A program made the position numbers and the translations under genes. Under the pieces are notes generated by a model. The model did no database searches, had not been told where the DNA came from, and saw nothing but the letters and a program-made list of their open reading frames with translations. A DNA stretch of 33,819 nucleotides from positions 489-34,307 of the forward strand of contig JACZRI010000003.1 in assembly GCA_022574775.1 (NCBI GenBank). Direction: 5' to 3'. This stretch comes from Patescibacteria group bacterium. GTDB lineage: Bacteria > Patescibacteriota > Minisyncoccia > Minisyncoccales > RBG-13-36-15. Below, in pieces: positions 2,871 to 5,970 of the stretch (positions within the stretch are counted from its first letter, which is position 1; each line of letters starts with the position of its first letter).

Positions 2871-3605
2871 TTGTTTGTGTCAAGGATTTTTCTTAAAATT
2901 TTTTTGGTTTTAATCATAGGAGCCTTGGGGGGAATAATCTTCCAGGCTTTTATTTTACCCTATCTGGCTACAAAACCTTATTTCCAGAGATTTCAGTTTA
3001 TAAAGATTCTGACAGAAAGGGAGGTAAACGTATATCCTACAGAAACAGTTGTTGTTCAGGAAAATATTGCTCTTCAAAGAATCATAGAGAAAGTAGAGAA
3101 AACAGTAATTGGGGTTCAAACAAGAACGAAAGCAGGAAAGATTTTGGAGGGTTCAGGTTTAATTTTAACTTCAGACGGCTTGGTGGTTACCCTGGCTGAT
3201 ATTGTACCCTACGGATCTGATTTTAAATTTTTTTGGGAAAAAAAACAGCTGCCCTTCCAGGTTTTAAAGAGGGATTTAAAGAACAATTTGGTCTTGATAA
3301 AAGCTGAAAAAGATGATTTTCATACAACTGGTTTTGCTGACTTAGAAAAAATAAAGCTGGGGCAAAGAGTTTTTCTTTTAGGGATAATTTTTGAGGACGG
3401 AAATCCTACAAAAATAGTTAATACAGGTGTTATTAAGGCGTTTAATGAAAACGCTATCCGAACTAATATTTTTGAAAAAAGTATACTCAAAGGAAGTCCT
3501 TTATTTGACATTGAGGGAAACGTATTGGGATTGAATACAATTGATTTTGAAGGAAAAGTCATCGCCATTCCCATTAATAAAATCCGAGAATTCGCAGGTT
3601 TTTAA
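2871..3605 (+). CDS. Membrane-anchored trypsin/HtrA-like fold protein, probably catalytically inactive
   Basis: N-terminal TM; GSGLILTSDGLVVTLADIV, NNLVLIKAE and GSPLFDIEGNVLGLNT resemble HtrA motifs but triad residues are not conserved; TTG start. Confidence 0.7.
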   Translation: MFVSRIFLKIFLVLIIGALGGIIFQAFILPYLATKPYFQRFQFIKILTEREVNVYPTETVVVQENIALQRIIEKVEKTVIGVQTRTKAGKILEGSGLILTSDGLVVTLADIVPYGSDFKFFWEKKQLPFQVLKRDLKNNLVLIKAEKDDFHTTGFADLEKIKLGQRVFLLGIIFEDGNPTKIVNTGVIKAFNENAIRTNIFEKSILKGSPLFDIEGNVLGLNTIDFEGKVIAIPINKIREFAGF

Positions 3606-3624
3606 AACCAACTCAAAATTTTTT

Positions 3625-3651
3625 CAAAAAAGAGGATTTACTCCTTTTTTT
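3625..3651 (+). terminator. Probable intrinsic terminator of the HtrA-like gene
   Basis: AAAAAAGAG gattta CTCCTTTTTT: A-rich/U-rich stem with a bulge followed by a T tract. Confidence 0.45.
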
Positions 3652-3685
3652 CTTTTTGCTAAAATTAAATAATTTTAGCAAAAAG
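3652..3685. promoter_or_regulatory. Perfect 15-bp palindrome carrying an extended -10-like TGCTAAAAT on each strand
   Basis: CTTTTTGCTAAAATT aaat AATTTTAGCAAAAAG. Confidence 0.55.
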
Positions 3686-3842
3686 ACACAAGAGGGGTCG
3701 GGAGGATTGAGTATCCTCCCGTGTAGGAAAACAGGCTTTCAGGTGAGTGAAGCCAAATCAGACTTGGCGAAGCGAAGCTCAAAACGTTAGAAACCGTGGG
3801 TGTCTAAAGAGCGACTCGTCTTCGACGAGTGCGCGATTTTTT
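3672..3842 (+). ncRNA. Candidate structured non-coding RNA of unknown family
   Basis: Extended -10-like TGCTAAAAT upstream; long-range pairing AGACAC (3684-3689)/GTGTCT (3800-3805); 9-bp hairpin CGGGAGGAT/ATCCTCCCG (3699-3721); terminator-like hairpin 3811-3834 followed by T6. Confidence 0.45.
3811..3842 (+). terminator. Terminator-like hairpin plus T6 immediately before the HTH gene promoter
   Basis: GCGACTCGTC TTC GACGAGT(g)CGC ga TTTTTT. Confidence 0.55.
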
Positions 3843-3856
3843 GCTAAGATTATATT
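3843..3856 (+). promoter_or_regulatory. Extended -10-like promoter for a leaderless mRNA
   Basis: TGCTAAGAT followed by exactly 6 nt (TATATT) and then ATG. Confidence 0.5.
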
Positions 3857-4444
3857 ATGGACAAAAAATTTTTAATCCAGCTAACATCCAGTCTTTATCG
3901 TTTAACCCTGCTTTTTCCTAAAAAGGAACCATTACGGTATAAGATGAGAGAATTGACTGTGGAGATTTTAGAAGATTTTGTTGAGTTAGAAAACAGTAAT
4001 CAATCTGCGAAAATATCCCATGAGATTTTGAAAAATATAAAGGTTTTAGATAATTTTTTTGAGGTGGCGAAGAATCAAAATTGGGTTGGTTTTTCTGAAC
4101 TCTTCCAAATTCAAAAAGAATATAGTAATATACAAGGCACATTGGAGGATCTTTATAAGGTGGGAAAAATCCAACAGTCAGAAGATAATGTTTTTCCAGC
4201 CGCGGAACGGCTGAAAAATCAAGTAAGTGTTCGAAGAGAATTAAATGGGCGTCAGGAAAAAATTTTAGAGATTTTAAAAGAAAAAGGAAGAGCTCAAGTC
4301 TGGGAGTTGAATAAAATTTTTCCAGAATTATCAAAGAGGACCTTAAGAAGAGATGTTGAGCAATTATACAAAGAGGGTTTAATTGAGAGAAAAGGAGAAA
4401 AAAATACCACCTTTTATGAGTTAAGGATAGAACTTGTTGTATGA
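3857..4444 (+). CDS. HTH (DeoR-like) transcriptional regulator
   Basis: C-terminal winged HTH: RQEKILEILKEKGRAQVWELNKIFPELSKRTLRRDVEQLYKEGLIERKGEKNTTFYEL. Confidence 0.65.
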   Translation: MDKKFLIQLTSSLYRLTLLFPKKEPLRYKMRELTVEILEDFVELENSNQSAKISHEILKNIKVLDNFFEVAKNQNWVGFSELFQIQKEYSNIQGTLEDLYKVGKIQQSEDNVFPAAERLKNQVSVRRELNGRQEKILEILKEKGRAQVWELNKIFPELSKRTLRRDVEQLYKEGLIERKGEKNTTFYELRIELVV

Positions 4445-4452
4445 GGTGGAGT

Positions 4453-4506
4453 CATGTTTGACGCGATAAAATCACGTTTGAATTAGTGAAACCACGTTTA
4501 ACGTGG
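4453..4506. repeat. Three iteron-like repeats at exact 20-bp spacing, the last within a 15-nt palindrome
   Basis: CATGTTTG at 4453, CACGTTTG at 4473, CACGTTTA at 4493; CCACGTT-T-AACGTGG at 4492-4506. Confidence 0.65.
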
Positions 4507-4512
4507 GGATTA

Positions 4513-4549
4513 TGATAGGACAAGGTAGGTAATATGGTATGTCCTATCA
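4513..4549. repeat. 10-bp inverted repeat upstream of the sigma factor gene
   Basis: TGATAGGACA (4513-4522) / TGTCCTATCA (4540-4549). Confidence 0.7.
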
Positions 4550-4586
4550 CGCCAAATGTGGTTTTATTTCTTGACCGACTTATTTT

Positions 4587-5081
4587 ATGCCAAATCCTAA
4601 AAAAGAATTCAGTAAAATTTACGATCAAAATATAGATAAAATTTACCGTTTTATCTTTGTAAAGGTTAGTTCCCAGGAAATTGCTGAAGATTTAACTTCA
4701 GAAACCTTTTTAAAAGGTTGGAGATCGTTTCAAAATCCACGGGATATTGAAAACCCTTCAGCTTTTTTATACAAAATCGCTCGGAATTTAGTCATTGATC
4801 ATTATCGCCAAAAAGCCCAGAAAAACACTGTTCAAGTTGAAGATTTTAACATAATTGATACTAGGTCAAATTTAGAGGAAAATGCTATTTTAACTTCAGA
4901 TCTGAACGTAGTTATGAGAGCTATGGAGAATTTAAAAGACAATTATCAAACAGTTATTGTTTATCGTTATTTAGATGACCTATCAATTTCAGAGATGGCC
5001 GAAATGCTCCAGAAGTCAAAAGAAGCCACAAGGGTGATGATTCACAGAGCTCTAAAAGAATTAAAGAAGCAGCTTGCTTAA
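4587..5081 (+). CDS. RNA polymerase sigma factor, sigma-70 family / ECF type
   Basis: Region 2 YDQNIDKIYRFIFVKVSSQEIAEDLTSETFLKGW and region 4 HTH YRYLDDLSISEMAEMLQKSKEATRVMIHRALKELKK. Confidence 0.88.
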   Translation: MPNPKKEFSKIYDQNIDKIYRFIFVKVSSQEIAEDLTSETFLKGWRSFQNPRDIENPSAFLYKIARNLVIDHYRQKAQKNTVQVEDFNIIDTRSNLEENAILTSDLNVVMRAMENLKDNYQTVIVYRYLDDLSISEMAEMLQKSKEATRVMIHRALKELKKQLA

Positions 5082-5114
5082 GAGTACAGGATTCTGGTTC
5101 GAATCCTGTACTCT
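5081..5114 (+). repeat. Perfect 14-bp hairpin with T-arm-like GGTTCGAATCC at the sigma gene stop codon
   Basis: AGAGTACAGGATTC tggttc GAATCCTGTACTCT; no T tract follows. Confidence 0.75.
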
Positions 5115-5126
5115 AATGACCGAGAA

Positions 5127-5192
5127 AATGGCTGAATGATTATTAATGGTTCTATGGCTAAACTATGGTTAAATTCGGAGCCATTTAGCCAT
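5127..5192. repeat. Nested inverted repeats between sigma factor and DUF5667-like gene
   Basis: AATGGCT (5127-5133)/AGCCATT (5179-5185) and ATGGCTAAA (5154-5162)/TTTAGCCAT (5184-5192). Confidence 0.6.
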
Positions 5193-5229
5193 GTAACAAT
5201 ATCGTGTCTTTTTCGTCATAAATAAAGAG

Positions 5230-5970
5230 ATGACTGAAACAGATCTTATTAAAAAGATCCGACTTTTGAAGCAAATTAGGCCCAGCAAAGACTGGGTTCT
5301 TTTAACTAAAAGAGAGCTTTTTAAAGAAGAAACCCCTGTTTTTAAAGCTTACAGAAACCCTGCTTCTGTCATTTTAAGGATTTTTCCACGGCTATTTCTC
5401 AATTACAGATTTGCCGTAGCTACATTTGTAGTCCTGGGTATTTTAGCTTCAGGGGCTGTTAATCTTGCCCAAAATTCTTTGCCTGGTGATTTTCTCTATC
5501 CTGTAAAAAGGATTTCAGAGAAAGGCCGGGCTGTTTTTGTTTCTGAAAAAGAAAAGCCAAAAGCGCAGTTAGAATTGGCAAATAAGAGGCTTGATGAATT
5601 GACAAAGATTGCTGAAGAAAACCAGGTGCGGAAGTTGGCTCCAGCCATTAGTGAATTTCAGGCAAGTTTATACCAGGCAGCAAAAGACTTGAAAAAGCCC
5701 AGTAAATTGACCCAAGAGATTGTGGATCAAACCCAAAGATTAAAGGAAAAAAGAGAAAAAATTAAGGTTTCTTATGGTATAAATATTGGAGAAAGTGAAG
5801 AATATAAGAATACTTTAAGAGAAATTGTCCAAAGAAATATTGAGGTCTTAGAAGAAAGTTCTTTGACTGAGAATCAAGAAACGCTTTTAGTAGAAGCGAA
5901 AGAAGATTTTGATGCGGAAAATTTCACTGGAGCCTTAGTTAAAATTTTACTTTTAAGCCAATCCAAATAG
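5230..5970 (+). CDS. DUF5667-like single-pass membrane protein, candidate anti-sigma partner
   Basis: TM segment FAVATFVVLGILASGAVNLAQ followed by NSLPGDFLYPVKRISEKGR and a helical C-terminal domain. Confidence 0.65.
   Translation: MTETDLIKKIRLLKQIRPSKDWVLLTKRELFKEETPVFKAYRNPASVILRIFPRLFLNYRFAVATFVVLGILASGAVNLAQNSLPGDFLYPVKRISEKGRAVFVSEKEKPKAQLELANKRLDELTKIAEENQVRKLAPAISEFQASLYQAAKDLKKPSKLTQEIVDQTQRLKEKREKIKVSYGINIGESEEYKNTLREIVQRNIEVLEESSLTENQETLLVEAKEDFDAENFTGALVKILLLSQSK

Follow-up and report, generated by a model that had tools for sequence, protein, structure and literature searches.

We conclude that positions 3653-3853 of the window, the 33,819-nucleotide stretch of DNA that was analysed, probably represent an inserted mobile element, short and gene-less, of an undescribed family that has spread through Patescibacteria. 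Inspection of the sequence confirmed the G/C-rich island at 3672-3842 to which the earlier note had drawn attention. In copies of the family that are clear insertions, the parts follow the order X-L-A'-core-tail-R, in which the target edge (a promoter -10, a CDS end or a tRNA 3' end) appears in two versions, L and R; X-L restores the gene or promoter, and the displaced version is R. The window copy lies on the + strand, as do all of its parts, and interrupts the promoter of a gene for a DeoR-type HTH protein with a weakly bAvd-like N-terminus (3857-4444, +). Flank X carries a -35-like hexamer, TTTACT (3637-3642), that aligns to the TTGACC of an empty site in genome G002, and L (3653-3669) includes the -10, TAAAAT (3660-3665), X-L making up an intact promoter. 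A' (3671-3685), the reverse complement of L with a fold-back score of 20, abuts the element. It is followed by the core (3690-3807, as bounded by aligned flanks), a lineage-specific tail (3808-3836) with a hairpin at 3814-3830, and R (TTTTTTGCTAAGATTAT, 3837-3853), a displaced native promoter segment with a -10 of its own, TAAGAT (3845-3850). A' is able to pair with either L or R, and the energy model predicts the A':R pairing with a summed probability of 12.3 of 14.

The conserved fold of the core is a three-way junction that passes through P1, the strand UGUAGGAAAACA, a variable P2, P3 and the strand AAGAGGGGU back to P1. In the window, the joining strand AAGAGGGGU occupies 3690-3698, its GGGGU part being nearly invariant across the family in the A1 alignment of 32 copies. 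The P1 hairpin (CGGGAGGAU/AUCCUCCCG) spans 3699-3721 with arms at 3699-3707 and 3713-3721, and is the 9-bp hairpin picked out by the earlier note. The joining strand UGUAGGAAAACA (3722-3733), strongly conserved in the same alignment, leads into the P2 region (3734-3785), which varies in sequence and length, is enlarged in the window copy by a hairpin at 3752-3768, and is absent from compact 73-nt copies. The P3 hairpin (UUAGAAACC-gug-GGUGUCUAA) spans 3787-3807, with arms at 3787-3795 and 3799-3807 and one A.G mismatch. Both P1 and P3 are supported by compensatory changes, and the joining strands between them are nearly invariant.

The window strand folds better than 200 of 200 shuffles (z -3.3), and the value reaches z -5.1 when both flanks, A' and R, are included. 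The check for covariation among homologs that the earlier note had suggested was strongly positive for P1 and P3, with scores well clear of both controls in each of three separate alignments. For A1, the score is 0.286 versus 0.149 in shuffled alignments (sd 0.010); a second set of mostly compact copies gives 0.396 versus 0.159, and a set drawn mostly from other classes gives 0.389 versus 0.148 with both sides changed in 13 pairs, the latter two sets having been aligned to the model, a procedure that favours the structure. Departures from Watson-Crick pairing in P1 and P3 comprise 30 G.U versus 8 A.C; hence, the + strand is the folding strand, and its fold would suit either RNA or single-stranded DNA. 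Some cores are circularly permuted, with the strand GGGGUCGGGG placed after P3 (L028:2466-2547, L040:2102-2191, L045:2399-2512, L046:2422-2488, L054:2518-2585 and L055:3700-3840). In these copies P1 is the closing helix, and promoter-like sequence lies directly upstream of some of them.

A DNA search of 40 relatives returned multi-copy matches in the source genome and several others, with the left and right halves conserved and the middle variable. The covariance model finds 12 copies at E<1e-4 in the source genome (0.7 Mb), and places the family in 94 of the 247 genomes of the order and in 63 of its 148 genera, at 1 to at least 16 copies; in a sample of the phylum it occurs in 32 of 380 genomes, other classes included. 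An exact pattern run over 84,980 species matched 46 stretches, 45 of which are Patescibacteria by title or give a full model match under titles saying only 'bacterium'. The remaining stretch, on a rumen Bacillota MAG contig (L169:4780-4879), matches in the 5' half only: its left half of the core, made up of P1 and both joining strands, is perfect, it scores 21 bits, and it was left out of the family count because P3 is missing. Viral contigs gave no exact pattern match, and viral carriage is unsupported. No description of the family was found in the literature searched, for which coverage of subscription journals and preprints was incomplete. At one locus (L107, G023:C2), three cores, separated by fragments of tRNA 3' ends, are arrayed in some 730 bp.

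As judged from the aligned sequences, these copies are insertions at many unrelated loci, with empty sites in related genomes. At the CDS end encoding ..MGFWVTEKVRK*, for example, five genomes hold the element, whereas G194 and a G208 paralogue have the gene end uninterrupted; where the site is occupied, L supplies the rest of the gene, stop codon included. A' repeats the beginning of L in reverse complement and runs as far as the core. An anchored fold-back A' (score of at least 11) is present in 70 of 148 copies versus 0.7% of random sites, which makes it about 70 times commoner, and around half of the copies are without a clear fold-back arm. A' is nearer to L in 42 of 46 copies and nearer to R in none of the 46. 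At CDS ends, L and R differ by 76 synonymous and 39 non-synonymous codons, a crude count that takes in a few doubtful alignments, and the R copies stay in frame; in several copies, such as L197, L and R are trailed by different terminator-like hairpins. On the simplest reading, L and R were both coding before the insertion, and thus L would have arrived together with the core and R would be the native version. Copies with identical L and R may instead have had the edge duplicated in place.

Of the 43 copies in the set taken chiefly from other classes, about 33 (some three quarters, on a rough reading) stand directly after a tRNA gene. These have a complete tRNA gene on the left and a partial tRNA 3' end (R) on the right, and their A' typically ends in ..GGATTCGAACC, the complement of the T-arm. 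Promoters also serve as targets, as do gene starts in antisense. Wherever R was found, its distance to the core is at most about 250 nt. A large integrative island with the core as one end was also considered and rejected: the copies tested that have no near R showed neither a distant R nor a larger island. At L074 (G049:C37), the element sits between two perfect 112-nt direct repeats of the target, and this copy is probably a very recent insertion.

The HtrA-like and HTH genes adjoin in G002 too, where the HTH promoter is uninterrupted (TTGACC-17-TATAAT) and the window site is empty; the same promoter site is occupied in G000, G001 and G020. In the window, X-L reads TTTACT-17-TAAAAT (3637-3665), with TG before the -10 and 9 of 12 matches, and a pattern scan found two promoter-like sites versus 0.2 expected. 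With about 95% identity, the window core comes closest to a G001 copy sited at another gene (L031); it resembles the same-promoter copy of G001 less, and that copy in turn is most similar to a G002 copy next to a tRNA. Given that the window core is nearest to copies at other sites in other genera and not to same-promoter copies, the family moves; the relationships among the cores further imply that this promoter was struck more than once or that cores were exchanged. The interrupted gene encodes an HTH_DeoR protein with orthologs in many genera of the order, its N-terminal bAvd-like match (PF22296) scoring 20.7 bits, below the cut-off of 40.

Downstream, the intergenic stretch at 4440-4580 contains repeated CACGTTT-like motifs and an inverted repeat around TAGGACA..TGTCCTA. 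It precedes genes for an ECF-type sigma factor and then a DUF5667 protein (4587-5970), possibly a sigma/anti-sigma pair. Right after the sigma-factor gene, at 5082-5115, lies a palindrome, GAGTACAGGATTC-TG-GTTCGAATCCTGTACTC, that resembles a tRNA T-arm with its fold-back copy. Its right arm has four exact copies in the genome, none beside a detectable tRNA, and it appears to be a second dispersed repeat family.

The earlier note had read the island as a candidate independent RNA with its own promoter-like element and terminator-like hairpin. The extended -10-like element does exist; it is not the island's own promoter, since what the insertion has split is the promoter of the HTH gene. The T6 of the supposed terminator opens R, the duplicated promoter segment, and a pattern scan for intrinsic terminators (a G/C stem with a T-run within 2 nt) finds none in 3600-3900. 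With the promoter belonging to the HTH gene and the T-run to the repeated target, an independent transcription unit is not supported. The long-range closing helix AGACAC/GTGTCT is favoured by the energy model in the window copy alone (p about 0.97, some 3 kcal/mol over P3), and its GTGTCT is the 3' arm of the covarying P3; across the family the pairing is available in 43 of 148 copies versus about 34 in shuffles, with no clear excess. The competing helices GGCTT/AAGCC and GCCAA/TTGGC, proposed as a switch, fall in the variable P2, and comparison lends the switch no support: the source genome has the GCCAA..TTGGC hairpin at four places only, and this hairpin is missing from P2 of the other aligned copies. 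The island does remain, as the note had it, structured and outside any recognised RNA family, given that Rfam scans at gathering and permissive settings gave no match and that no tRNA or tmRNA was found in the window. A match to scattered degenerate repeats, which the note had named as grounds for refutation, is borne out as far as the scattering goes, but the repeats keep a covarying fold and are therefore not degenerate junk.

The comparisons establish the core fold, the insertion, the doubled edge, the fold-back copy and the near-identical cores at unrelated sites; how the element moves can be proposed as follows. The folded core, as RNA or single-stranded DNA, would be recognised by an enzyme or protein supplied in trans. 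A staggered opening of the target would leave a 3' strand that folds back on itself and is copied into A'. Copying would halt at the nick, where the core would be joined, and this would account for A' and R starting at nearly the same base. Units of L-A'-core, once formed, might also spread between species to the same gene. In the window, the target is the HTH promoter, with X-L keeping a -35 and a -10 and R being the old -10. Transcription from X-L would begin in or near A', and the core would form part of the HTH leader, where A':R pairing would close it just upstream of the start codon. Placed in this way, the core could possibly affect the HTH gene, and such an effect is probably secondary.

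Neither a reverse transcriptase nor a Y1 transposase was retained as the mover, their domains being absent from several genomes that are rich in copies. Some hosts, the source genome included, do have Y1 transposases, and no Y1_Tnp domain was found in copy-rich G001, G020, G052, G049 and G023; RVT_1 was absent from G000, G001, G002, G006, G020, G052, G049, G023 and G196, with loss or assembly gaps possible in both cases. The element might alternatively be RNA-directed and free of any protein gene, with a folded RNA core that picks the site together with its target-complementary 5' arm, and host polymerases that copy it in. Such copying would create both the fold-back arm and the doubled edge. 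We regard this as rather unlikely; were it true, it would be a form of transposition so far undescribed.

That the copies are instead a regulon of cis-regulatory leader RNAs (attenuators, antiterminators or riboswitch-like elements), each controlling its downstream gene, seems to us unlikely. The main support for this account is a group of at least 14 copies, here called type B, that stand directly before housekeeping start codons and share a TACCACTATG-like right end. Their genes, named from translations, are rplN, rpsN, rpsR, rpmA, atpE, nusA, recR and a holA-like gene; the loci include L053, L055, L057, L058, L059, L076, L098, L103 and L110, and one copy lies before 16S rRNA. The nearly invariant joining strands, as in RNAs that bind a ligand or protein, and the predicted place of the window copy in the HTH leader would also fit. 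Nevertheless, most copies are found behind a tRNA gene, behind a CDS 3' end or antisense to a gene start, orthologous genes in relatives are without the element, Rfam gives no match, and the window copy has no terminator. The type-B copies show little sign of L, A' or R; they may be ancient insertions since recruited as leaders.

A plain palindromic DNA repeat of REP or MITE type, whose hairpins matter only as DNA and have no function as RNA or as a folded strand, would be dispersed, short, gene-less, intergenic and rich in hairpins, as these copies are, and some hosts do have Y1 transposases. We consider this very doubtful: few parts of the element are as conserved as the joining strands, a three-way junction is kept and some copies are circularly permuted, the G.U and A.C departures are far from equal, and the Y1 domain is absent where copies abound (G001, G020 and G052). 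RNA splicing was raised by the coding-looking R: a tiny self-removing intron, with A' as internal guide, would join X to R, and in its favour are the ability of A' to pair with both L and R, the in-frame R copies and the excess of synonymous codon differences. However, X-L already makes up a full tRNA, CDS or promoter by itself and splicing is therefore unneeded; the promoter copy is not transcribed across L and cannot be spliced; the tRNA cases have L intact and R truncated; and no Rfam intron model matches. Splicing is thus highly improbable, and we retain the insertion of a mobile element as the preferred reading.

Patescibacteria genomes are very small, yet the family tops a dozen copies in some of them. 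It enters tRNA, ribosomal-protein, ATP-synthase and promoter regions, and the restored side is left unbroken. If our reading is true, this would be a new way for a gene-less element to insert harmlessly, possibly by a new RNA- or single-stranded-DNA-dependent route of transposition, and the family could serve as a marker of gene transfer among mostly uncultured cells. It also calls for caution, as an RNA-like fold adjoining a gene may be a mobile insertion and not a switch.

The known kinds tested were Rfam RNA families, riboswitches and other cis-regulators, intrinsic terminators, self-splicing introns, IS200/IS605 or REP elements, retroelements (retrons, group II elements and DGRs, for which a host reverse transcriptase was the defining feature) and integrative elements of tRNA or gene ends; each has at least one tested defining feature that this gene-less, edge-restoring, fold-back, covarying and permutable arrangement lacks. 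The apparent newness of the family is a matter of anatomy and not of a demonstrated mechanism; more cautiously, it could be a variant of non-autonomous mobile element. With the structured bacterial RNAs of Rfam 15 it shares covarying helices and invariant joining strands, although the covariance models, applied to the window copy and copies at six other loci, returned only tRNAs and sub-threshold matches and no family at threshold. Riboswitches and other cis-regulators hold a constant leader position before functionally linked genes, whereas the present copies are found at promoters, CDS ends, tRNA 3' ends, antisense gene starts and some leaders. Group I and II introns likewise have an internal arm that pairs, in the manner of a guide, with sequence to either side, and permuted forms of group II introns exist (PMC8637638). 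In contrast, the core of this family measures about 73-126 nt and matches no Rfam group I or II catalytic core, and the interrupted gene, complete in X-L, is intact without splicing, so that no removal of the element is needed.

REP/BIME sequences and derivatives of IS200/IS605 (Y1) elements are likewise short, hairpin-rich, extragenic, multi-copy and gene-less. Unlike them, the family has a target duplication of about 15-110 nt with a fold-back copy, a multi-helix core and invariant joining strands, and copy-rich hosts that are without Y1. The MITEs of DDE transposases resemble it as small non-autonomous insertions with target duplication; in the family, however, no element-specific terminal inverted repeats were seen, its inverted repeat being a copy of each target. 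Similar in their treatment of the target edge are the tyrosine-integrase elements of tRNA and gene 3' ends, in which an incoming edge copy restores one side and a displaced partial copy remains on the other, just as is observed here. No integrase or other gene lies between the edge copies of the present family, which differs from those elements in being a unit of only about 150-350 bp, in entering promoters and gene starts as well, and in carrying an inverted edge copy together with a folded core.
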